In this document: positions 226-53,116 of the stretch, in pieces | Layout of the letters: every line of letters begins with the position of its first letter | How positions within the stretch are numbered: the stretch's first letter is position 1 | From: an uncultured Clostridia bacterium | GTDB lineage: Bacteria > Bacillota > Clostridia > Oscillospirales > Ruminococcaceae | Reading direction: 5' to 3' | DNA length: 64,000 bases | Assembly (NCBI GenBank): GCA_944382875.1 | Contig: CALWNQ010000004.1 | Location: forward strand, 102,927 to 166,926 | Position numbers and translations under genes: made by a program | Notes under the pieces: model-generated | What the model saw: only the letters and a program-made list of their open reading frames with translations | The model's database searches: none | What the model was told of the DNA's origin: nothing

Positions 226-1344
226 ATGAGCGCACTGCCCAGTATTCTATTGTTAATTGTCCTGATTGGCTCCAATGCCTTTTTTGCGATGAGTGAAATC
301 GCAATTCTTTCCGCAAATTCCAACAAAATGAAAAAACTTGCCGAAAACGGCAACAAACGCGCAGCACTGCTGCTGAAAATTACTGACGAACCCTCGGATT
401 TCCTTGCAACCATCCAGGTTGGCGTCACTCTTTCCGGTTTTCTGGCATCCGCTGTGGCTGCGGAAAACTTTGCCGGATATTTTGACCGCTGGCTTTCTTT
501 TCTCCCCATCAGCCCGGCGTTGCTGCACAGTATCGTATTGGTTCTGCTCACTATCCTGCTCTCTTATTTCACCTTAATTTTCGGTGAACTGACACCAAAG
601 CGAATTGCTATGAAATTCCCCGACGAAATGGCCTTAGGTTCTGTGGGAATTCTCTGGGCAATCTATAAATTCTGCCGGCCATTTATTCGACTACTTTCCG
701 CCAGTACCAACGGCTTACTCCGTCTGCTGCGCATCAAACCGGAAGATGATGAAGAAAAGGTAACGGAGGAGGAAATCCTTCTGATGGTCGAAGCCGGAGA
801 GGAAAAAGGCTCGATTGACCGCGAGGAAAAAGATTTTATCACAAACCTGTTCCAATTTCAGGATCAGCGGGTGAGCGCCTTGATGACCCACCGCACCGAA
901 ATCTGCGCGGTACCGGATGATACCCCGATTTCCGGACTGATCGAAGTCACCGAGCACGCACATTATTCTCGTATCCCCGTTTATGAAGACAGCATTGACA
1001 ATATCATCGGTGTTCTATATATCAAGGACCTGGTTCCGCTGCTCAAAGAGGAACCGTTTCAAAAACATACAGTCCGGGAATTTATCCGCCCAGTTCTCTA
1101 TGTTCCTCAAACGCTGCACAGTGCACAGCTTCTGCGGCAGTTCCGGGAACAGAAAATTCATATTGCAGTTGTGGTGGATGAATACGGCGGAACAGCCGGT
1201 ATCATCACAATGGAGGATCTTCTCGAATCCATTGTGGGTGAAATCGATGATGAGTATGACCGTCAGGACGATGAAACCACACAGGAATCCGCCCCTGAAT
1301 CGCCCCAAAAATTAGCCGCCCGTCAGATTCAAAAACAGGTATAA
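226..1344 (+). CDS. CNNM/CorC (HlyC-like) family membrane protein with CBS pair
   Basis: The protein has 372 residues. It starts with an N-terminal DUF21/CNNM transmembrane domain (about residues 1-165, several hydrophobic segments and the SEIAILSA motif), followed by a tandem CBS pair (about 200-335, with the MTHRTEI and [10 protein letters not shown] motifs). Relatives are implicated in magnesium or other divalent cation export and were historically called hemolysins. The usual C-terminal CorC_HlyC domain is missing: the protein ends about 40 residues after the second CBS motif in an acidic/polar tail, so it is shorter than the common 420-440 residue form. The start is supported by AAAGGAG upstream. 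It stands alone and converges on the next gene across a shared terminator. The family is certain; the transported ion is not. Confidence 0.92.
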
Positions 1345-1370
1345 ACTTCGGTGAATCCATCAAAAAAATA

Positions 1371-1414
1371 AAACCTTCCAGTTCTTCTTTCAGCAGAGAA
1401 CCGGAAGGTTTTTT
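1371..1414. terminator. Bidirectional terminator
   Basis: AACCTTCC pairs with GGAAGGTT in an extended stem with one mismatch. It is flanked by A-runs on the left and T-runs on the right, between two convergent genes. Confidence 0.9.
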
Positions 1415-1427
1415 GATTCATGATTTA

Positions 1428-2765
1428 TCAGGAACCTGTCACAACGTTGTAAACCGAGATCAATCCGCCGATAGACACAACCGCAATCAGCACAGGTGTT
1501 ACCAGACGAATGCACCAGATCCATGCTTTTTTCAGCTTGAATACCACACCTTCCTGCTCAATTTCCTCCACCAGAACAGAAGGTCCCCACACCCAGCCGA
1601 TAAAGATGCACATCAGCAGTCCACCGAGCGGGAGCAGCAGGTTATCGGTAATCATCCCAACAAATTGATAAAAGTTATACCCGACAATCTTGATATCTTT
1701 CATCACACCAAAGGAAAGGGAGCTTGGAATTCCAATCAGTGCAATCACAATGCCAAGGATGACTGTTGCCTTTTTCCGCTCCCAGTGGAAGTTGTCCATT
1801 GTAAAAGATACAACACACTCCAGCAACGCAATGGATGAAGTCACAGCCGCAAAAAACATCAAAATAAAGAAAAGTAGCGCGAATACCGAACCGCCGAAAA
1901 TCTGACTGAATACTTTGGGAAGCGTTTCAAAAATGAGTGCCGGCCCCTCTGTCGGCTCCAATCCGAATGAAAACACCGCCGGAAAGATCGCAACTCCCGC
2001 CATCACTGCCGCCATCGTATCGAGCCCGGCAACTTTGGCACAGTTTGCCGGAATATTTTCGTCCTTTTTCAGATAGCTGCCATAGGTCAGCGTAATCCCC
2101 ATTGCAAGGCTCAGCGAATAAAACACCTGTCCCAGCGCAGCAGTCACCGACTGGAACGAAAAGCTCCCGCCTGCACCCGGCACAAAGATAAACGCAAGCC
2201 CTTTTCCGGCATTGTCCAGTGTTACCGAACGGACAATCAGCACCACCAACAGGATAAACAGCGCCGGCATCATTACCTTGGAAACCTTTTCAATGCCTCG
2301 TGTTCCAATGTAACAAATCACGATTGTCACCAGCATGAAAACCATATGCCACAAGATCGGCTCCCCAACTTGTGCAGTGTACTGGTTAAAATTGGCCGGT
2401 GCCGCAAAAGTTGTCGCATACGAAACGATGTATTTCAGAATCCAACCGCCAATCACGCTGTAATAGGACAAAATCAGCCCCGCTGTCAATACGCCCATTA
2501 CCCCGATCACTGCGGCCTTCTTCCCGCCAAGCTTGCGGTAGGCTGCCACCGGGCTCTTCTGCGTTTTCCGGCCGATTGCCATCTCGGCGATCATCACCGG
2601 AAGCCCGAGGATCAGAATAAAGACCAGATAGGCGATTAAAAACATGAATCCGCCGTTCTCCCCCATCAGATACGGGAATTTCCAAAGATTTCCCAATCCG
2701 ATCGCGGCGCCGGCTGTTGCAAGCAGAAATCCAACGCTGCTTGCCCATTGTGTGCGCTTTCCCAT
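1428..2765 (-). CDS. Sodium-dependent transporter, NSS/SNF family
   Basis: This is a bacterial neurotransmitter:sodium symporter homologue (LeuT/MhsT/Tyt1 type) of about 445 residues with 11-12 transmembrane segments. The TM1 signature GAAIGLGNLWKFPY near the N-terminus carries the unwound sodium and substrate site. Such proteins import amino acids with Na+ across the cytoplasmic membrane. I chose the internal start MGKRTQW at 2765 because GGGGG lies 8 bases upstream; the longer frame to 2795 lacks a ribosome binding site. The substrate cannot be told from sequence alone. It has its own promoter just upstream, so it is probably a separate unit from the kinase gene behind it. Confidence 0.93.
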   Translation of the reverse strand: MGKRTQWASSVGFLLATAGAAIGLGNLWKFPYLMGENGGFMFLIAYLVFILILGLPVMIAEMAIGRKTQKSPVAAYRKLGGKKAAVIGVMGVLTAGLILSYYSVIGGWILKYIVSYATTFAAPANFNQYTAQVGEPILWHMVFMLVTIVICYIGTRGIEKVSKVMMPALFILLVVLIVRSVTLDNAGKGLAFIFVPGAGGSFSFQSVTAALGQVFYSLSLAMGITLTYGSYLKKDENIPANCAKVAGLDTMAAVMAGVAIFPAVFSFGLEPTEGPALIFETLPKVFSQIFGGSVFALLFFILMFFAAVTSSIALLECVVSFTMDNFHWERKKATVILGIVIALIGIPSSLSFGVMKDIKIVGYNFYQFVGMITDNLLLPLGGLLMCIFIGWVWGPSVLVEEIEQEGVVFKLKKAWIWCIRLVTPVLIAVVSIGGLISVYNVVTGS

Positions 2766-2801
2766 ACAGGATTCCCCCATTATATGTATATTCACTGCAT
2801 T

Positions 2802-2830
2802 AGTTTAGCACAGCACACAGCAAAAATCAA
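2802..2830 (-). promoter_or_regulatory. Promoter for the NSS transporter
   Basis: On the minus strand TTGATT and TAAACT are separated by 17 bp, about 40 bp upstream of the chosen start. The -35 box overlaps the last codons of the upstream gene. Confidence 0.5.
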
Positions 2831-3330
2831 GTAGATTTGTGGATTTCAAGCAAGAACTCTTGATTTTCGCCAATTTCAGGCGGCTCAAATGATAAGCTCC
2901 ACACATTCAAATCCTCTGCCGAGATGCGGAACGTTTTCCCATCGTTCATCCGGTTGCGTTGTTCCACCCGGCGAATCAGCTCTTCCAGCGGAGTTTCCAT
3001 ATAATGCACACGGCATTCCGCTCCCAGCGCATGGGCACGCCGGGCAAAATCCGTCCGCTCCTCCGCGGCCCACAGCCCAAAATCCAGCACAACATTCACA
3101 CCCATCTGAAGAAGCCGCTCGGCCTGTTTCCAGATGAGCGTTTCCACAAGGCTGTGCATCCGGTCGTGTTCGGAGCTTTTTCCGGCTCCGTGGAAATCAT
3201 CTCCCACCAAAAAGAGCTGCCACTCGTCCGGTGTAAAGACAATGGCATTCCACTCCTCCTGATGGGCGCGCGCAAAGGTGGTCTTGCCCGAACCGGGAAG
3301 CCCCACCATCAGGTGCAGTACCGGTTTCAT
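2827..3330 (-). CDS. P-loop ATP-binding protein (polynucleotide kinase/zeta-toxin-like fold)
   Basis: This is a 167-residue protein with Walker A GLPGSGKTT near the N-terminus and a VVLDFGLW strand near the middle, where such kinases carry the Walker B-like Asp. Arg-rich helices (LIRRVEQRNR) follow and could form a LID. The domain layout matches small AAA_33-type kinases that phosphorylate small molecules or nucleic acid ends; the substrate is unknown. The start at 3330 is preferred because GAGGAGGGG sits just upstream; five extra residues are possible. It lies 16 bp behind the ABC-F gene and probably shares its transcript. Confidence 0.82.
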   Translation of the reverse strand: MKPVLHLMVGLPGSGKTTFARAHQEEWNAIVFTPDEWQLFLVGDDFHGAGKSSEHDRMHSLVETLIWKQAERLLQMGVNVVLDFGLWAAEERTDFARRAHALGAECRVHYMETPLEELIRRVEQRNRMNDGKTFRISAEDLNVWSLSFEPPEIGENQEFLLEIHKST

Positions 3331-3346
3331 CGAACTCCTCCCCAAA

Positions 3347-5263
3347 CTATTCGCCGAGTTCCATCCATTCTTCCATTGCGGTGTTCAGCGAATTTTTCAG
3401 CTCTTCCAGCCGGGAACAGGCATCCTGCATCTTTTGATAATCGCCCGCAAAGGCGTCCGGAGCCGCCAGATCCGCCTCAATCTGTGCGGTTTCTGCCTCC
3501 ATCTGCTCGATCTGCTGTTCCAGCTCCCGCAGACGCGCCCGGCGTTTGGCCTCCTCCGCTTTCTGCTGTTTGCTGCGGTGATAGCCGATATTGGAGGCCG
3601 TCACCTGCTTTTCCGGCTTGGGCGGCGGAGTCTGACGGGCTGCCTTTTCGCGCTGCTTTTCAATATAATAGTCGTAGTTGCCGTTGAATACTTCCACATG
3701 ATCGGAAAAGATTTCCACAATCCGGTCGGGCACAGCCTTTAAGAGGTACCGGTCGTGCGAAACAAAGAGCAGCGTGCCCTTGTAGTCCCGCAGCGCATCC
3801 TCCAGAATTTCCTTGCTGCGGAGGTCGAGATGGTTGGTCGGTTCGTCGAGCATGAGAAAGTTGCCGCGTTCCATCATCAAAATGGCAAAAGCAAGCTTGG
3901 CGCGTTCGCCGCCGCTCAAAACCCCAACCTTTTTGTAAACGTCCTCCCCCTGGAGCAGCACCCGGCCCAGCATGGTGCGGATCTCGGTTTCGGTCCGGCG
4001 GGGCCAGCGGCTCCACAGCTCTTCGATCACGGTCAGTTCCGGATGGAGCTGGCGGTTTTCCTGGTCAAAATAACTGCTTTTGACTTCCTGTCCCCAACGG
4101 ATCTTGCCGGAGTCTGGTGCAAGCTCCCCGCGGAGCGCATGGAGGAAGGAGGACTTTCCAATTCCGTTTTCTCCGATGACCGCGATTTTTTCGCCGCGCT
4201 GGATGTGGAGATCCAGATGGTCAAAGAGCCGTTTGCGTTCCAGCCCCTCACCCACCGACAGCGAAAGATCTTGGACAATCAGCACATCCTTTACCGGGTC
4301 CCGGTCGAAATCAAACCGGAGCGAGATTTTTTTGTTGTATTCCCGCGGACGGTCGAGCCGTTCCATCGCTTCCAGCTTTTTGATCCGACCTTTAGCCATA
4401 TTGGAAGTGGAGGCGCGGGTGAGGTTTTTGGCGATAAAGTCCTCCATATCGGCAATCTGTTCCTGCTGGGCTTCGTATTCTTTCTCCCAGCGGGCCATCA
4501 GTTCGGCCTTGAGCTGTTTGTATTTGGTGTAATTTCCCGGGAAAACCCGCATTTCCCCGAATTCCATTTCCCAGATTTCCTGCACTGTTTTGTCAAGAAA
4601 ATACCGGTCATGGGATACCACGATCACGGCGCCGCGGTAGTGCTCCAGATGATCTTCCAGCCAGAGCAGTGTTTTGAAGTCGAGGTGGTTGGTCGGCTCA
4701 TCCAAGATGAGCAGTTCCGGCTCGCTCAACAGCAGCTTTGCCAGCGCAAGCCTTGTTTTTTCGCCGCCGGACAGGGTGGAAATCACCGTATCGGCGTCTT
4801 TGTCCTCAAAGCCCATACCATTCAGAACCGTCTGAATCTTGACATCAATCAGATAGCCCTCGTTGCTTTCAAAATAGGCCTGCAGCCGATCGTATTCCGC
4901 CGAAATCCGGCGATATTCTTCCGAATCCGGTTTGCATTCCGCCAGGTCCAGATGCAGCGCATCCATTTGCTCTCGCGCCTTTAAAACCGGCGCGAAAACC
5001 GACCGCATCTCTGCCTGAATGGTATTGGAACCGGTCAGGCCGCTGTTCTGACGGAGATACCCGATGTTCAGATCCTTTTTGCGGTCCAGCTCCCCGGTTT
5101 CATATTCCTGATCACCGCAGATGGTATTAAGCAGCGTGGACTTTCCGGCGCCGTTTGCGCCGATAAGACCGATCCGGGAATTTTCCTGCACCTCAGCCGT
5201 CACACCGCCGAAAATTACGGTGCTTCCAAATGATACTCCTATCTCTTGCAGGGATACCAGCAT
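3347..5263 (-). CDS. ABC-F family ATPase
   Basis: The 638-residue protein has two ABC cassettes and no membrane segment. Walker A motifs are GANGAGKST (residues 35-43) and GENGIGKSS (second half), and the signatures are LSGGEKTR and LSGGERAK. Between the cassettes is the charged alpha-helical linker typical of the family, which contacts tRNA and the ribosome, and a C-terminal coiled coil follows (about 540-635). ABC-F proteins act on ribosomes as translation factors, and some confer antibiotic resistance. The YdiF/Uup-like length and C-terminal coiled coil suggest a housekeeping member rather than a dedicated resistance factor, but this is inference. It lies 12 bp downstream of nadB and 16 bp upstream of the kinase gene. 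Confidence 0.93.
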   Translation of the reverse strand: MLVSLQEIGVSFGSTVIFGGVTAEVQENSRIGLIGANGAGKSTLLNTICGDQEYETGELDRKKDLNIGYLRQNSGLTGSNTIQAEMRSVFAPVLKAREQMDALHLDLAECKPDSEEYRRISAEYDRLQAYFESNEGYLIDVKIQTVLNGMGFEDKDADTVISTLSGGEKTRLALAKLLLSEPELLILDEPTNHLDFKTLLWLEDHLEHYRGAVIVVSHDRYFLDKTVQEIWEMEFGEMRVFPGNYTKYKQLKAELMARWEKEYEAQQEQIADMEDFIAKNLTRASTSNMAKGRIKKLEAMERLDRPREYNKKISLRFDFDRDPVKDVLIVQDLSLSVGEGLERKRLFDHLDLHIQRGEKIAVIGENGIGKSSFLHALRGELAPDSGKIRWGQEVKSSYFDQENRQLHPELTVIEELWSRWPRRTETEIRTMLGRVLLQGEDVYKKVGVLSGGERAKLAFAILMMERGNFLMLDEPTNHLDLRSKEILEDALRDYKGTLLFVSHDRYLLKAVPDRIVEIFSDHVEVFNGNYDYYIEKQREKAARQTPPPKPEKQVTASNIGYHRSKQQKAEEAKRRARLRELEQQIEQMEAETAQIEADLAAPDAFAGDYQKMQDACSRLEELKNSLNTAMEEWMELGE

Positions 5264-46245: not shown

Positions 46246-47388
46246 TTGGAAATCTATTTGGATAACTGCGCCACTACCCGTGTCTGCGATGAAGCGGTAC
46301 AAGCTTGTATCAAAGCAATGACACTGGATTATGGGAATCCTTCCTCTCTTCATAAAAAAGGAATGGAAGCTGAAGAGATTCTGCGGGAAACACGGCGCAC
46401 CGCTGCGGGGATTCTGGGCTGTGACGCCAATTTGCTGACAATTACCGGAAGTGCCACCGAAAGTAATAATTTAGCTATCTTAGGTGCTGCCGCTGCCTAT
46501 CCGCGTGCCGGAAAAACCATCGTTACCACCTCAGTAGAGCATGCTTCGGTCACAAATGCGGTACGGCATCTCGCGGAAAACGGCTACAACATCCGATTTG
46601 TGAATCCCCGTTCGGACGGCAATTTTCACCCGCAGGATTTCCTGGATGCGGTGGACGAGGATACCTTTCTGCTTTCCATGATGATGGTCAACAACGAAAT
46701 CGGCACCATTCTGCCGTGGCAGACCGTCATCCCTGCCTTGCGGAAAAAATACCCCAAACTGCTCATCCATATGGACGCTGTACAGGGTTTTGCCAAATAT
46801 CCGCTGAATGTCAAACGGCTTGATCTTGATCTGCTTTCTCTAAGCGGACACAAAATTTATGCTCCAAAAGGAGTGGGGATGCTCTATTGCAAAAAAGGCA
46901 TCCGTCTAAAACCCATCGTCTTTGGCGGCGGGCAGGAAAACGGTCTCCGTTCCGGAACGCAGGCGGTGCAGCTTGCCGCCGGCCTGACCGAAGCAATGCG
47001 TCTCTGTCAGCAGAACCGAGCTGCGTTTGAAACCCATTACCAAATGCTCAACGCGCGTCTGAGGGACAAGATTGCGGGCATGGACCGCATTTTCATTAAC
47101 TCTCCGGAAAACGGTGCGCCGCATCTGCTGAACATTTCGGTGATCGGGGTGCCATCTGAAATTATGCTGCATTTTCTCGAATCCAAAGGGATCTTTGTGT
47201 CGAGCGGTTCAGCCTGCTCTAAAGGGGCCAAAAGCGAAGTGCTCAAAGCTTATGGGTTCCCGGAGGAACGGATCCGTTCCGCACTCCGGATCAGCTTTTC
47301 CAAGGACAACACGCTGGAAGATATTGACCTTTTGTCTGAAGCGCTGATCGAAGGTGCTGCACGCTTCCGCCGGATGACCGGTGCATAA
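46246..47388 (+). CDS. Cysteine desulfurase (NifS/IscS-like)
   Basis: The 380-residue PLP enzyme has the PLP Lys in SLSGHKIYAPKG, the His of TSVEHASV and the catalytic Cys in SSGSACSKG on a short loop. It supplies persulfide sulfur for thiolation. The start is TTG, with AAAGGAGG at the proper spacing. It is directly upstream of thiI, the conserved pair for 4-thiouridine in tRNA. Confidence 0.94.
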   Translation: MEIYLDNCATTRVCDEAVQACIKAMTLDYGNPSSLHKKGMEAEEILRETRRTAAGILGCDANLLTITGSATESNNLAILGAAAAYPRAGKTIVTTSVEHASVTNAVRHLAENGYNIRFVNPRSDGNFHPQDFLDAVDEDTFLLSMMMVNNEIGTILPWQTVIPALRKKYPKLLIHMDAVQGFAKYPLNVKRLDLDLLSLSGHKIYAPKGVGMLYCKKGIRLKPIVFGGGQENGLRSGTQAVQLAAGLTEAMRLCQQNRAAFETHYQMLNARLRDKIAGMDRIFINSPENGAPHLLNISVIGVPSEIMLHFLESKGIFVSSGSACSKGAKSEVLKAYGFPEERIRSALRISFSKDNTLEDIDLLSEALIEGAARFRRMTGA

Positions 47389-47437
47389 TGCAACATCCTG
47401 CCTGAAAAATCGTACCATATATAGGAAAGGAACTGTT

Positions 47438-48613
47438 ATGAACGAACTGATTCTCATTAAATACGGCGAAATCGCCCTGAAAGGCTTAAACAAAGGCTCT
47501 TTTGAGGATATCCTGCTGCGCAACATCCGATGGCGAATGCGCGATATGGGCCATTTCAAGCTCCGCAAAGCACAATCCACCATTTATCTGGAGCCTTCCG
47601 ACTGTGACACCTTTGATTTTGAGGAAGCGATTGACCGTCTGACCAAAATCTTCGGAATTGCCTCCATCTCCCGCGCACTGGTGGTTGAGAAAACCCTGGC
47701 TGCTGTTTTGCGGGAAGTATGCGCCTATCTGGAACTGCAGCTTTCCATGGTGCGGACCTTTAAAGTGGAAACCCGTCGTTCCGATAAACAATTCCCGATG
47801 AAATCGCCCGAAATTTCGGCAGAAGTCGGCGGAGAAATTCTTTCTCACTTTCCCGGTATCAAAGTGGATGTTCACAACCCGGAGCTGATAGTCAATGTAG
47901 AAATCCGGGATTTCGGCGCTTACATCCATGCCGGCAGCATTGCCGGGGCAGGTGGTATGCCGGTTTCCTCCAGCGGAAAGGCGATGATCCTGATTTCCGG
48001 CGGTCTTGACAGTCCGGTGGCAGCTTATATGATGGCAAAACGCGGACTGGCACTCGAAGCGATCCATTTTGTCAGCCCACCGTACACCAGCGACCGCGCC
48101 CTCCAGAAAGTGGAAACCCTTTGCGAAAAGCTCGTTCCCTATACCGGCAGCATCAAATTCCATTGCGTTCCTTTCACCGAAATTCAGGAAGCAATCAAAG
48201 AACACTGTCCGGAAGAGCTGTTTACCGTCATTATGCGGCGGTTGATGATGAAAATCGCCACAACTATCTGCAAAGAATCAGATATCAAGGCGCTGGTTAC
48301 CGGCGAAAGCCTGGCGCAGGTTGCCAGTCAGACGCTGGATGCCCTGTACTGCACCGACAATTCCACCGATCTGGTCGTACTCCGTCCGCTCATCGGTATG
48401 GACAAAACTGAGATCATTAAAATTGCTTACCAAATTGACACCTATGAAACTTCCATCCTCCCTTATGAGGATTGCTGCACCGTCTTTACCCCCCGCCATC
48501 CCCGCACGAAACCGAAACTTTATTTTGTGGAAAAAGCGGAATCTGGATTTGATTTTGCTCCGCTTTTGGAACAGGCTGTCCGGGACACTGTCTGCAAAAC
48601 CATCACCTTATAA
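47438..48613 (+). CDS. thiI: tRNA 4-thiouridine synthase
   Basis: The 391-residue protein has a ferredoxin-like and THUMP domain (about 1-165, with IKYGEIALKG) and a PP-loop ATPase (SGGLDSPVAAYMM). The conserved EDCCTVFTPRHP segment lies near the end. The rhodanese domain found in enterobacteria is absent, as in Firmicutes where NifZ-type desulfurase delivers sulfur directly. ATG at 47438 follows AGGAAAGGA. Confidence 0.95.
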   Translation: MNELILIKYGEIALKGLNKGSFEDILLRNIRWRMRDMGHFKLRKAQSTIYLEPSDCDTFDFEEAIDRLTKIFGIASISRALVVEKTLAAVLREVCAYLELQLSMVRTFKVETRRSDKQFPMKSPEISAEVGGEILSHFPGIKVDVHNPELIVNVEIRDFGAYIHAGSIAGAGGMPVSSSGKAMILISGGLDSPVAAYMMAKRGLALEAIHFVSPPYTSDRALQKVETLCEKLVPYTGSIKFHCVPFTEIQEAIKEHCPEELFTVIMRRLMMKIATTICKESDIKALVTGESLAQVASQTLDALYCTDNSTDLVVLRPLIGMDKTEIIKIAYQIDTYETSILPYEDCCTVFTPRHPRTKPKLYFVEKAESGFDFAPLLEQAVRDTVCKTITL

Positions 48614-48637: not shown

Positions 48638-49015
48638 ATGAAAATTTTATTACAAATCGGCATCATTTTTGGAGTTTGTTTTGTGGGAGAAGGGCTTGCC
48701 ATGCTGCTCCCACTTCCGGGAAGCATCATCAGCATGATTCTGCTTTTCCTGCTTTTGCTTTTCAGGCTGCTGAAACCGGATCATATTGCGGAAAAATCGG
48801 ATTTTCTGTTAAAAAACATGGCATTTTTTTTCATTCCTGCCGGTGTAGCGATCATGGAGAGCGCTGGAATCTTATTCGAAAACCTTATCCCTTTTCTTGT
48901 AATCTGTGTAGCCACCATGGTGATTACCTTTGCTGTTACCGCTTTCACGGTGCGGCTGACTGTTTCTCTTCAAAACCGGATTGCCAACCGCAAAGGAGGA
49001 AAACATCATGAATGA
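48638..49015 (+). CDS. lrgA: CidA/LrgA-family protein
   Basis: The 125-residue protein has four membrane segments with the LrgA signature MLLPLPGSIISMILLFLLL and KSDFLLKNMAFFFIPAGVAIM. It is a holin-like partner of LrgB, proposed to control autolysis or metabolite export. The end overlaps lrgB by eight bases. Confidence 0.92.
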   Translation: MKILLQIGIIFGVCFVGEGLAMLLPLPGSIISMILLFLLLLFRLLKPDHIAEKSDFLLKNMAFFFIPAGVAIMESAGILFENLIPFLVICVATMVITFAVTAFTVRLTVSLQNRIANRKGGKHHE

Positions 49016-49685
49016 ATGGATATCTTCCCCACTTTTCGGCATCACACTGAGTATCCTCGCTTATGCAGCTGGTGTATGGATCCAGAAAAAGCTGCGTTCC
49101 CCGATTGCAAATCCGCTGCTGATCGCGATTGTGCTGGTTATTGCATTTTTAAAACTGACCGGTATTTCGCTGGAAACCTATGACAAAGGCGGCGATTTTA
49201 TCAGCATGTTCCTTGCGCCGGCAACTGCATGCCTTGCCCTTTCGATTTACCGCCAGCTCCCGGTGTTAAAAAAGAACCTGATTCCTGTCATTGTGGGAAC
49301 CACTGTCGGCTCCGCTGCTTCGATGGGAAGTGTCTGGCTGCTCTGTAAAGCGTTTGGCCTTACCGATGAGATGACAGTCTCATTGCTGCCGAAATCGGTC
49401 ACTACCCCTATTGCAATGGGTGTAGCAGAACAACATGGCGGCATTGTTCCGATCACAGTGGCAGCCGTTGTTCTCACTGGTATTTTAGGCGCAATCTTCG
49501 CACCGCTTCTCATCCGGATCTTCCGGGTAAAGAATCCCATTGCTGCTGGGCTTGCCATTGGAACCTGCAGCCATGCTGTGGGAACTTCCAAAGCCATTGA
49601 GCTGGGAGAAGTAGAAGGGGCTATGAGCGGTATCGCGATTGGTACCGCCGGACTTGTTACTGTTTTGATCGCAACTTTGATCTGA
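49008..49685 (+). CDS. lrgB: LrgB-family protein
   Basis: The 225-residue protein has about six to eight membrane segments and LrgB motifs FLAPATACLALSIYRQLP, LLPKSVTTPIAMGVAE and CSHAVGTSKAIELGE. It probably acts with LrgA at the membrane. ATG at 49008 follows GGAGG and overlaps lrgA; a longer frame is not needed. Confidence 0.92.
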   Translation: MNEWISSPLFGITLSILAYAAGVWIQKKLRSPIANPLLIAIVLVIAFLKLTGISLETYDKGGDFISMFLAPATACLALSIYRQLPVLKKNLIPVIVGTTVGSAASMGSVWLLCKAFGLTDEMTVSLLPKSVTTPIAMGVAEQHGGIVPITVAAVVLTGILGAIFAPLLIRIFRVKNPIAAGLAIGTCSHAVGTSKAIELGEVEGAMSGIAIGTAGLVTVLIATLI

Positions 49686-49712
49686 TGTTGTGAGAGGAGG
49701 CAACGATTCACC

Positions 49713-51131
49713 GTGAACCTAAAACGGGAAGAACAAATTCTCAGTTTGATTCGCTCCCTTTCCGCTAAAAACATGCGGCTTGCCGCTGCCGAAATCGGAA
49801 CCGGCGGTTTGTTTGCTCAGGAACTCTCCTCCGCCCCGGGTGGCGCATCCAAAATATTCCGGTGCGGACTGGTACTCTTTGATGAAAAAGGAATGTCCCG
49901 GCTTGCGGGAGTGCGTCCCGCTATCTGCCGCCGTGTAGGCCTAACATCAGCTGAAACCGCCGCCGCCCTCGCACTCGGCGTTATGAAAAAAGACAACGCC
50001 GCCGTCGGCATTGGTGTTTCTGCTCCGCAGGCAAACAGAACAGCACTCTGGATTGCCGCTGCTGTCCGGGAAAAGAAGAAAACATGGATCGCAGTCCGGG
50101 AAATCTGTTTCCAACCGGAAAAAGATCCCAATCAACTCCGGGAAGACGCAGTTTCATCGCTGATTGACTTGCTCGATGGATATTTTTCCAACCAGCAAGA
50201 CGCATTAAGCTTATTCGAACCGGCAAAACGATGGAAAAAATGCTATCAAACTCCTTTCCTGCTGCGGCTTGTGCAGTTTTTCATTCCTTGGCCGGGTGAT
50301 ACTGTTTCGGATATCGCAGTCAAAGTTCTGCTAATCGGTGCAATTTGTATCGGTGGATGGGCTGCCGGCCAACTATCCGGCGATATGATTCAAACTTATC
50401 AGAGCACCCAGGTTTTGGAGCGCGCAGTAGAAACAATGGAACAGCAGCCAACAGAAGAACAGGTCAGCAGCCTGCCGGATGGGTATCTGGACAAATTCGC
50501 CGCTGCTTATGAGGTAAATCCGGAAATTGTCGGATGGCTCACCATCCCCAATACGAATATTAACCTTCCTGTCCTCCAGCACGAAGATAATGATTTCTAT
50601 CTCAATCATAATTTTGAGGGAGAATATGACCCGAACGGTGTCCCTTTTATGGATTTTCGCAACAAGGTGGATGAATTGGACAACAACACTTTGATTTACG
50701 GCCACAACTGGGAATCCGGTCAGATGTTCCATAGTCTCCTCTTATATAAAGACGTAGAATTTTATAAGCAAAGCCCGGTTATCACTTTTGACACAGTGTA
50801 TGAAGAAAGTCAATGGAAGGTTATTTCCTGCTTTGAGGCAATTACGGATGCCAACATCGGAGAAGTATTTAATTATTTCAATTTTGTCCGCACAAGCGAT
50901 ACAGAGCGAATCCAACAGTATATTGACGATGTAATCGCCCGCAGCTATTTTACAACGACTGTTGATGTTAACACTGACGATAAGCTGCTTACCATTCAAA
51001 CCTGTGCAAATGACCGCTACAATCGAAAAATATGTATTGTCGCCCGAAAACTTCGCCCCGGCGAAAGCGCAGAAGTGGATGTGGAAGGGGCCGCTGCCAA
51101 TCCTGACCGAATAAAACCGGTAATTTATTGA
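49713..51131 (+). CDS. CinA/PncC-like domain fused to class B sortase
   Basis: This 472-residue fusion has an N-terminal cytoplasmic domain (about 18-140) that matches the CinA C-terminal/PncC amidohydrolase fold: AAAEIGTGG at 24-32, APGGASKIFRCG at 41-52, then a Val/Ala-rich beta core. The usual ESCTGG is EIGTGG, so the catalytic Ser is gone. A membrane segment (about 203-221) leads to an extracytoplasmic class B sortase (about 265-450) with His331 in YGHNW, Cys431 in TIQTC and Arg438. It has a GTG start and sits between lrgB and a Ser-rich membrane protein. The sortase would join a cell-wall substrate, none of which is evident here. The architecture is unusual. Confidence 0.88.
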   Translation: MNLKREEQILSLIRSLSAKNMRLAAAEIGTGGLFAQELSSAPGGASKIFRCGLVLFDEKGMSRLAGVRPAICRRVGLTSAETAAALALGVMKKDNAAVGIGVSAPQANRTALWIAAAVREKKKTWIAVREICFQPEKDPNQLREDAVSSLIDLLDGYFSNQQDALSLFEPAKRWKKCYQTPFLLRLVQFFIPWPGDTVSDIAVKVLLIGAICIGGWAAGQLSGDMIQTYQSTQVLERAVETMEQQPTEEQVSSLPDGYLDKFAAAYEVNPEIVGWLTIPNTNINLPVLQHEDNDFYLNHNFEGEYDPNGVPFMDFRNKVDELDNNTLIYGHNWESGQMFHSLLLYKDVEFYKQSPVITFDTVYEESQWKVISCFEAITDANIGEVFNYFNFVRTSDTERIQQYIDDVIARSYFTTTVDVNTDDKLLTIQTCANDRYNRKICIVARKLRPGESAEVDVEGAAANPDRIKPVIY

Positions 51132-51150: not shown

Positions 51151-51765
51151 ATGAATCTGAAAAAATTTATTGACAAATTTACGCACACCATCTGGATTCA
51201 GGTAATCATTTTGGTTGCAGCAATGTGGGGAGTCGTATCCTTAACAGGCGCTTCATTTGAATCTGTTGAAAACTCCTCTAAAATCCGGATTGCATCCGAT
51301 GAAAGCAGCAATACAGGCGATGAGCTTTCAACAGATGGTTCCAATCCGCTTGACGACTTGTTTAGCGAGGAAAGCGGCGCTTTTGGCAACTGGGATGAGT
51401 TTTCCGAGCTCCCGAAAACCAGTCAGGTAACACCCAATCAGTCATCCAAACCCTCTGCTTCTTCCCAGCAAGCTTCCTCACAACCAACTGAATCTGCAGA
51501 ACCTACAGAGGAATCATCTTTACCGGAAGATACATCTATCCCCGATAATCCAGAGAGCTCTTCTGAACCTAGCGGTACTTCTCCCGGTGATGCAATTGTC
51601 ATTGATCCAGACGCCGACCATGGACAGGGACCAGGGGATGAAATCTCCTCTGAACCCACAGAATCCTCTGTTGCAACTGAACAGCCGGTTTCTTCGGAAC
51701 CGACCGCACCGGATGAAGGCGGAGACTCTCCGATAGATGCCCCTTCGGAAAGCACCCAAGGGTAA
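51151..51765 (+). CDS. Membrane-anchored Ser/Pro/Glu-rich protein
   Basis: The 204-residue protein has an N-terminal uncleaved anchor (about 13-32) then a long extracellular low-complexity region made mostly of Ser, Pro, Glu, Thr and Asp; no folded domain, LPXTG or repeat unit is visible. It lies 19 bp after the sortase fusion and 9 bp before the SpoIID-like gene, which suggests a spacer or scaffold for the sortase or the LytB protein. I recognise no family. Confidence 0.78.
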   Translation: MNLKKFIDKFTHTIWIQVIILVAAMWGVVSLTGASFESVENSSKIRIASDESSNTGDELSTDGSNPLDDLFSEESGAFGNWDEFSELPKTSQVTPNQSSKPSASSQQASSQPTESAEPTEESSLPEDTSIPDNPESSSEPSGTSPGDAIVIDPDADHGQGPGDEISSEPTESSVATEQPVSSEPTAPDEGGDSPIDAPSESTQG

Positions 51766-51774
51766 GGTGAGAGA

Positions 51775-53079
51775 ATGCGCAAAAATTACTTGCTCGCCAT
51801 TTGTGCCATTGTCCTATTGGCAGCATTTACCTCTGTAACAGCTTTAAGCAGCAGCTTTATTGCACCTTCCAATGACCTAACCGTACAAGCGATGGCATAC
51901 CCCGATGATGTTCCTTCCTTCGGAACTGGCGGCGCTCCGCTGGATGTTGATGACGTCTCTTCATTGTTGGATTCTTCCCAACAAGATTCCTCATTGGATG
52001 AATCTTCAGAACAACAGAGTGAAACAGAATCAGACAGTTCTGAAACAGGCATAGATCCATCTTCCGGATTGGCTGAATCCTCTGTCACATCGAATTCAGA
52101 TATTGTTCTAACTGGACCGCCTCCAACCGAAGGTTCTTATACGACCGAAGAAAGCTCTTCTAAGTCAGAAAGCTCCTCTAAACCGGAAAGCTCTTCCAAA
52201 CCGGAGAGTTCTTCCAAACCGGAAAGTTCCTCCAAACCGGAGAGTTCTTCCAAACCGGAAAGTTCCTCCAAACCGGAAAGTTTCGACGCAACGTCCTCTT
52301 CGTCGGGAGAAACCCTCCGGGTTTCACTAAATGGCACAGTAATGGAAGGGGATGCCTATGACATGCTATGTCAAATTGTGGAAGCGGAAATCGGCGGAAG
52401 TTATCATACAGAAGCTTTAAAAGCACAAGCTGTGGCTGTCTATTCTTACATCAAATACGAAAATAATTTGGGCCGTACTCCCTCCCTTCCCGGACGCTCC
52501 CCTACCCAAAAAACCAAAGATGCCGTATCAGCGGTGTTTGGACAAGCTTTGTACTATGGCGGAAAGATTGCTTTTACACCATACCATGCCAGCTCTACCG
52601 GAACCACCAATTCCTCAGCGGATGTATGGGGTGGCAGCTATCCCTATCTGATAGCAGTAACAAGCAAATATGATCCTGCATCCTCCTATAAAAACCAGAC
52701 TGTTACCTATGAAGCTTCCACACTCGGTCCCAAGCTGGAAAATTATCTTGGTATCACTCTATCGGATGATCCTTCCGGATGGTTTTCCAATATTGTCACA
52801 AATGGAAGCGGCTATGTAAGTAAATTGACTGTCACCGACTCAAATGGCACTGCCCATACCTTAACCGGACGGCAGATGCGCGAAAATGTATTGGCGTATG
52901 GCATTCGCAGCCACGCCTTTACCATTACGGTATCGGGCAGCAGCATCACCTTTACCACAAATGGATACGGTCACGGAGTTGGTATGAGTCAAACTGGCGC
53001 CAATGCATATGCAGTCAACGACGGATGGACTTATGCTCAAATTCTAAGCCATTATTATCCCGGCACCACACTTTCTTGA
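51775..53079 (+). CDS. SpoIID/LytB-domain protein with hexapeptide repeats
   Basis: The 434-residue protein has an N-terminal signal or anchor (about 5-27) and a Ser/Glu/Asp-rich stalk (about 50-175) that includes seven ESSSKP-type units. A SpoIID/LytB domain follows (about 185-430) with the expected catalytic-region Glu in VEAEIGG, then ALKAQAVAVYSYI and a C-terminal GYGHGVGMSQTGA. SpoIID-type domains cleave denuded glycan strands (lytic transglycosylase) or enhance amidases. It is the last gene of the operon. The sporulation protein itself lacks this stalk, so this is probably a vegetative or envelope-remodelling paralogue. Confidence 0.88.
   Translation: MRKNYLLAICAIVLLAAFTSVTALSSSFIAPSNDLTVQAMAYPDDVPSFGTGGAPLDVDDVSSLLDSSQQDSSLDESSEQQSETESDSSETGIDPSSGLAESSVTSNSDIVLTGPPPTEGSYTTEESSSKSESSSKPESSSKPESSSKPESSSKPESSSKPESSSKPESFDATSSSSGETLRVSLNGTVMEGDAYDMLCQIVEAEIGGSYHTEALKAQAVAVYSYIKYENNLGRTPSLPGRSPTQKTKDAVSAVFGQALYYGGKIAFTPYHASSTGTTNSSADVWGGSYPYLIAVTSKYDPASSYKNQTVTYEASTLGPKLENYLGITLSDDPSGWFSNIVTNGSGYVSKLTVTDSNGTAHTLTGRQMRENVLAYGIRSHAFTITVSGSSITFTTNGYGHGVGMSQTGANAYAVNDGWTYAQILSHYYPGTTLS
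52150..52275 (+). repeat. Seven 18-bp tandem repeats in the SpoIID-like gene
   Basis: Seven in-frame units encode ESSSKS then six ESSSKP. Units 4-5 (52204-52239) and 6-7 (52240-52275) are identical 36-bp copies, evidence of recent duplication. Replication slippage could make the stalk length variable. Confidence 0.95.
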
Positions 53080-53085
53080 CAAAAA

Positions 53086-53114
53086 AACAGAGCCTTTTCA
53101 GGCTCTGTTTTTTT
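53086..53114. terminator. Bidirectional terminator
   Basis: AACAGAGCC and GGCTCTGTT form the stem, with A-run and T-run flanks. It closes the long plus operon and pcrA. Confidence 0.93.
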
Positions 53115-53116
53115 GA

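Follow-up and report, generated by a model that had tools for sequence, protein, structure and literature searches.

A sortase related to class B joined to a decayed CinA/PncC domain in an uncultured Ruminococcaceae bacterium

The C-terminal domain of CinA (PncC) is an NMN deamidase, exemplified by AtCinA (2A9S) and TtCinA (4CT8). According to the accessible text of PMC5384747, AtCinA, a PncC enzyme, forms a homodimer, its S31A, K63A, Y58A and R145A variants have zero activity, and Y58F lowers its efficiency about 460-fold. In the accessible text of PMC3855486, CinA is described as occasionally fused to other domains and the word 'sortase' does not occur; the same text presents YdeJ and YfaY of E. 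coli as non-functional PncC-fold proteins existing beside a functional copy in the genome, and describes no membrane or sortase domain joined to them. Among class B sortases, the single SrtB of C. difficile cleaves (S/P)PXTG, with PPKTG and SPQTG as the best sequences, in the portion of PMC4155245 available.

Here we describe a gene in a 64,000 nt stretch (the window) of contig CALWNQ010000004.1, from an uncultured Clostridia bacterium of the Ruminococcaceae, whose product differs from both systems: a PncC domain is fused to a sortase via a predicted membrane segment, so that the sortase carries a PncC-derived domain of about 165 residues ahead of that segment. No account of a CinA-sortase fusion was found in the open-access literature, subscription papers lying mostly outside the search, in agreement with the first-pass annotation, which knew of no described function for it. 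The PncC-SrtB architecture is apparently undescribed; both parts are known families.

Architecture, gene neighbourhood and distribution of the fusion

The features of the locus are as follows, all on the + strand.

46246..47388, +, IscS/NifS-type cysteine desulfurase, which starts the conserved gene order (tblastn match upstream of thiI in 22 of 25 loci)
47381..48613, +, thiI, a conserved gene 5' of cinA/srtB (24 of 25 loci)
48638..49685, +, lrgA and lrgB (PF03788, PF04172), between thiI and the fusion in the window's clade
49692..49700, +, likely ribosome-binding site GAGAGGAGG, 12 nt 5' of the GTG start, as read from the sequence
49713..51131, +, PncC::SrtB fusion ORF, 472 aa (both Pfam domains in 19 of 36 database matches)
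49746..50174, +, CinA/PncC domain (PF02464), residues 12-154, without its catalytic residues
49791..49808, +, EIGTGG loop, residues 27-32, with Ile28 at the position of the nucleophile Ser31 of AtCinA (alignments A2 and A3)
49878..49880, +, Phe56, aligned with the phosphate-binding Tyr58 of AtCinA
49893..49895, +, Met61, aligned with the catalytic Lys63 of AtCinA
50280..50300, +, conserved juxtamembrane motif FIPWPGD, residues 190-196 (alignment A3, 23 rows)
50316..50372, +, predicted membrane segment, about residues 202-220, a hydrophobic stretch within model helix 198-243
50538..51047, +, class B sortase domain (PF04203), residues 276-445
50703..50705, +, catalytic His331 (109 of 109 aligned sortases)
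51003..51005, +, catalytic Cys431 (109 of 109 aligned sortases)
51027..51029, +, Lys439 at the catalytic-Arg position (Arg in 77 and Lys in 32 of 109)
51151..51765, +, protein of 204 aa, rich in Ser, Glu and Pro, with a single hydrophobic segment at the N terminus
51775..53079, +, SpoIID/LytB-type protein with a Ser-rich linker (PF08486, TIGR02669)
53080..53115, +, terminator-like hairpin 3' of the SpoIID-type gene, a 16-pair stem followed by a T-rich tail (consensus match only)

Profile searches bore out the architecture proposed in the first-pass annotation, i.e., a CinA/PncC domain, a membrane segment (here predicted) and a class B sortase: residues 12-154 match PF02464 (E 1.3e-16), and the protein scores 164.6 bits against the class B sortase equivalog TIGR03064, above its cut-off of 153.75. 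A Pfam search revealed no match to the MoCF or KH domains in the fusion protein. Within the FIPWPGD motif, F190, P192, W193, G195 and D196 are invariant across the 23 rows of alignment A3, and several tandem and full-length relatives contain an FPWKGD-like motif.

The gene order is conserved, the one locus without an upstream thiI (L009) beginning near the fusion gene. The lrgAB pair separates thiI from the fusion in four of 25 loci (L004-L007). Thirteen of the 25 loci, the window not counted, have a SpoIID-type match downstream or within the frame itself; such a match follows the fusion in L004, L007 and the window, and none was seen downstream in L005 and L006. The 204-aa protein has no Pfam match above cut-off, and the window copy shares the sequence SGAFG(N/D)W(D/E)EFS with its counterparts in L004-L007. 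One of the loci compared, that of G296, contains thiI, srtB and spoIID, with no CinA match in its genome.

An assembly error or a missed frameshift could mimic a fusion, the more so as cinA and srtB are separate adjacent genes in many relatives, and a join at about 50250 had been named as the point to check. The joint contains neither a stop nor a change of frame, and the same architecture recurs elsewhere, so that the fusion is real and no assembly join, an artefact being scarcely credible. Both Pfam domains occur in 19 of the 36 database proteins retrieved at E up to 1e-10 (7997 candidates scored), including the window's own; the count of homologues that had been suggested thus favoured a genuine fusion. 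A scan of genome contigs found the fusion encoded in nine (L004-L011 and L016) of the best 80 of 215 loci. Likewise, an uninterrupted match over both domains is present in at least 13 of 394 genomes sampled from the order (G000, G031, G338, G061, G379, G046, G248, G179, G056, G037, G012, G074 and G023), and a check of reading frames added G166 and G275, which brings the fused genomes to at least 15 of 394, from six families (f1, f4, f9, f15, f23 and f24). The PncC part of G248 and G179 is under Pfam's cut-off and only a MoCF remnant is left of the CinA part in G275. Genome G113, which seemed fused on the strength of its reported open frame, was left out of the count, its DNA having two separate frames. 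One database protein, P0017 (343 aa), starts inside the PncC domain.

The sortase half and its candidate substrates

An alignment of 109 sortases (P0002, P0033 and L004-L009 excluded) showed that His331 and Cys431 are invariant and that the catalytic Arg aligns with residue 439, occupied by Lys in the window protein, whereas residue 438 is variable. The complete triad that had been read from this protein therefore stands for His331 and Cys431, but not for Arg438. Sortases with Lys in this column comprise the PncC-SrtB clade and its standalone relatives (L012-L015 and P0022-P0028), and require a single change on the tree (clade support 100/98). We thus call the window sortase a Lys variant whose score and fold relate it to class B: it resembles the C. 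difficile enzyme in its TIGR03064 score, its fold and its His and Cys residues, and differs from class B sortases by having Lys439 in place of the catalytic Arg. In the full-length fusions L011 and L016, the sortase half reaches 144.3 and 147.8 bits, respectively, slightly under the TIGR03064 cut-off. A literature search on R197K found no paper.

As an observation apart, L151 (positions 718-3414, also within L205) encodes a CinA-SrtB ORF of 899 aa with the sortase motifs YGSN, LATPT and GYFVV, in which the catalytic His, Cys and Arg all seem to be lost, the dead sortase being still in frame; a further sortase match lies downstream of it (L205, 15110-15817).

A PF04203 search found one sortase in the window's genome (completeness estimated at 98%), a situation comparable to the single SrtB of C. 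difficile (PMC4155245). Candidate substrates occur in the same genome, as would be looked for with a class B sortase: four proteins have a C-terminal SAPQTG followed by a hydrophobic stretch and a basic tail. These signals came to light by reading weak PF00746 loci; no match to either sorting-signal profile, TIGR03063 or PF00746, passed its curated cut-off in this genome. None of the four genes lies beside the sortase gene. Three of the products have a long acidic C-terminal module in common, and two of their genes adjoin each other:

L182, 2309-4192, SAPQTG protein with acidic module
L183, 4826-6217, SAPQTG protein with acidic module
L183, 6384-8609, SAPQTG protein with acidic module

A signal-module profile built from these three proteins matched six of 16 genomes, one of them the window's own, where a match follows from how the profile was made, and had no match in the other ten (including G003, G004, G007 and G009). 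The tails in the other five matched genomes are EAPQTG, APPQTG, PPKTG, APKTG, APPETG, APETG and LPQTG. The [AP]P[QK]TG-type signals of the window's genome are close to the (S/P)PXTG reported for C. difficile SrtB in the accessible text of PMC4155245. From these proteins and that preference, the window sortase is probably active on SAPQTG proteins; Lys at the position of the catalytic Arg lowers this claim, leaving activity unproven and not assured. The 204-aa neighbour was also considered as a sorting-signal protein, which is unlikely, since its LPKTS is replaced by LPRVS, MPKVS and FYVES in the counterparts.

Decay of the CinA/PncC half

The window protein has the PF02464 domain and the fold of PncC, the latter retained in the structure model that had been proposed as a check, but lacks its catalytic apparatus. 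By alignment with AtCinA, the Ser/Lys dyad is replaced (Ser31 by Ile28 and Lys63 by Met61), only Arg143 remains of the phosphate-binding pair (Tyr58 is replaced by Phe56, and Arg145 is kept), Ser103 substitutes for Thr105, and about 8 residues are missing from the TGIAGPGGG loop (alignment A2). Judged from these residues, the PncC half is enzymatically dead, which upholds the first-pass view that it is no normal deamidase. The proposed binding of a pyridine nucleotide, in turn, found no support: Ser, Lys, Tyr and the TGIAGPGGG loop are lost, though the EXGTGG loop is retained.

The same decay is seen across the 17 decayed rows of the alignment. The Ser31 position has Ile in 11, Ala in 5 and Met in 1; the Lys63 position has Met in 10, Ala in 6 and Val in 1; and the Tyr58 position has Leu in 8, Phe in 6, Ser in 2 and Ala in 1. 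Glu27 and Gly32 are invariant, Thr30 is present in 16 rows and Arg143 in 12; the EXGTGG loop, whose conservation had been singled out for checking, and the Ser at the Thr105 position are retained in 15 to 17 of the 17. Altogether, 14 positions of the domain are invariant, and the pocket positions are more conserved than the domain mean (0.778 vs. 0.618; resampling P 0.005). Six other fused rows of this alignment vary in the extent of decay: P0018 has an intact ESCTGG motif with the Tyr and the Lys; P0019, P0020, L008 and L009 lost the Ser and retain the Tyr and the Lys; and P0021 lost all three residues.

As with YdeJ and YfaY (accessible text of PMC3855486), the degenerate copy is accompanied by another in the genome, a separate CinA-length gene of 424 aa located elsewhere. 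Two sets of genomes, 10 and 25 in number, were searched with PF02464, and we compared the 12 whose fused CinA has the intact motif AESCT[GA]G (G008, G009, G046, G061, G056, G037, G012, G074, G379, G166, G023 and G031) with the 12 that have a decayed fusion (G000-G007, G338, G248, G179 and G275); the genome of P0018, motif-intact and of the same clade as the window, is excluded from this contrast. A separate PF02464 match was found in 11 of 12 genomes with a decayed fusion (in G007, a 184-aa frame; G005 is the exception), whereas none of the 12 with a motif-intact fusion had another match (Fisher P 1e-5, uncorrected for kinship), an absence that is provisional because several assemblies are incomplete. 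If only genomes with a known completeness of 90% or more are counted, the contrast is 7 of 7 vs. 0 of 5 (P 0.001). The tree offers too few independent changes, one pair on starred branches and three on all branches, for a tree-corrected test to have power.

Origin and possible role of the fused domain

Relatives at the same genomic place contain forms of cinA and srtB ranging from neighbouring genes to fusions. The cinA gene of L112 ends in TAA, followed by AAAGGAG and the ATG of srtB in the same frame, and that of L113 ends in TGA, followed by AAAGGAGG and the ATG of srtB, also in frame. Programmed read-through of this stop was considered and is not favoured, because srtB has a ribosome-binding-site-like stretch and an ATG of its own in both loci. 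MoCF, KH, PncC and the sortase form one protein in L011 (929 aa; its CinA half scores 503.9 bits, vs. a cut-off of 379 for the NCBI CinA equivalog) and L016 (952 aa), and a complete CinA is likewise fused to SrtB in L110 and L111; compared with these whole enzymes, the window protein retains the PncC part only, in dead form. The fusions of L143 and L160 retain PncC without Pfam-detectable MoCF or KH. In L120, MoCF, KH, PncC, Sortase and SpoIID share one frame of 1121 aa with a complete but decayed CinA, and L162 (913 aa) combines a MoCF remnant (hhalign E 6.8e-6), SrtB and a SpoIID-like part that is under the Pfam cut-off (E 0.001) and 42% identical to the window's by tblastn.

Other arrangements were seen as well. 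A 1153-aa frame in L154 (742-4200) contains a decayed CinA, SrtB and a Big_2 Ig-like domain, so that the region after the sortase varies too. In L146, L152 and L153, which belong to a single genus within the window's family, a standalone PncC of 172-183 aa (with AESCTGG) precedes two class B sortases, the first of them one stop codon away and in the same frame. The SrtB proteins P0030 and P0032 have long N-terminal domains (residues 1-215 and 1-185) that are weakly MoCF-like (hhalign probability 7.8, P 0.0044 against the MoCF domain of CinA).

In the tree built from 54 sortase domains, P0018, which is motif-intact, groups as sister to the decayed clade of the window (support 98/82), with the Ser-less group as sister to the pair; barring a regain, the Ser was thus lost at least twice. 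The fused state changes 10 times on the best tree, with most forks among full-length fusions open. The conserved gene order locates the window's PncC domain at the place of cinA in the cluster, with lrgAB intervening in the window's clade. From these comparisons, the domain is likely to have begun as the cinA next to srtB of an iscS-thiI-cinA-srtB cluster, which became joined to srtB and later decayed; the gene order and the relatives make the cluster's own cinA a better explanation for the domain than metabolite gating.

The explanation that we favour, with a probability of about 0.6, is that of a membrane sortase held by a folded, dead cytoplasmic CinA module, derived from a cinA-srtB fusion via stop loss. 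The cinA gene of the cluster would have lost its stop codon to form a single frame with srtB, and decay of the CinA part would have followed redundancy with a second cinA. The sortase would anchor [AP]P[QK]TG proteins to peptidoglycan, in the same way that C. difficile SrtB cleaves (S/P)PXTG (accessible text of PMC4155245). The dead domain is most likely a structural cytoplasmic module, kept for dimerisation or positioning of the sortase, as suggested by the homodimer described in the accessible text of PMC5384747, the predicted retention of the fold and the loss of the catalytic residues.

Pseudoenzyme domains often turn into binding domains, and the main rival to this structural role is that the dead PncC binds a nucleotide or other metabolite and gates the sortase through the membrane helix. 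The conserved EXGTGG loop and Ser at the Thr105 position, the pocket conservation, which is also compatible with ligand binding, and purifying selection on the domain would all suit such a sensor. The pocket, however, has lost Tyr58 (to Leu, Phe, Ser or Ala) and Lys63 (to Met, Ala or Val) in 17 of 17 rows as well as part of the TGIAGPGGG loop, and the Y58F change is by itself enough for the drop in AtCinA efficiency cited above (PMC5384747, accessible text). Nothing pointed to a coupling with the sortase, which leaves the gating proposed in the first-pass annotation without direct support, and we regard a sensor as unlikely. Overall, then, that annotation was partly confirmed in its observations and partly supported in its interpretation.

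It is likewise improbable that the N-terminal domain is a slowly decaying relic whose sole function would be not to block the sortase. Repeated loss of the Ser within the Lys-type clade, where MoCF and KH are absent, agrees with such a fate, as does the existence of standalone Lys-type sortases without a PncC domain (L012-L015), and PncC evolves faster than the sortase (36-56% vs. 76-87% identity between the window and L004-L007). But dN/dS between L005 and L006 (dS about 0.4), the one unsaturated pair, the others being saturated or nearly so, is 0.17 in PncC, well under 1, and 0.05 in the sortase, which indicates that the domain is constrained as a protein, less so than the sortase. The invariant positions and the predicted intact fold also argue against a relic; intact frames among the database proteins weigh little here, because these sequences are called ORFs.

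We also entertain, as a quite doubtful idea, that CinA-SrtB fusions are membrane-spanning devices that link the salvage of pyridine nucleotides within the cell to the anchoring of surface proteins outside it, the CinA part having become, in the window's lineage, a purely cytoplasmic sortase controller. If this were true, some lineages would have the cell's only CinA tethered to a sortase. In five sampled families of one order (f4, f9, f15, f23 and f24), a single polypeptide does combine a NAD-salvage enzyme of intact motif with a transpeptidase predicted to act outside the membrane, and a motif-intact fusion also occurs in two more named MAG loci; being the sole detectable CinA in 12 genomes, such fusions make a role of CinA at the membrane or envelope directly testable. 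The series from neighbouring genes through complete and shortened fusions to a dead domain offers a readable case of a pseudoenzyme module, and the Lys-for-Arg sortase clade, with its [AP]P[QK]TG candidate substrates, is a testable exception to the His-Cys-Arg rule.
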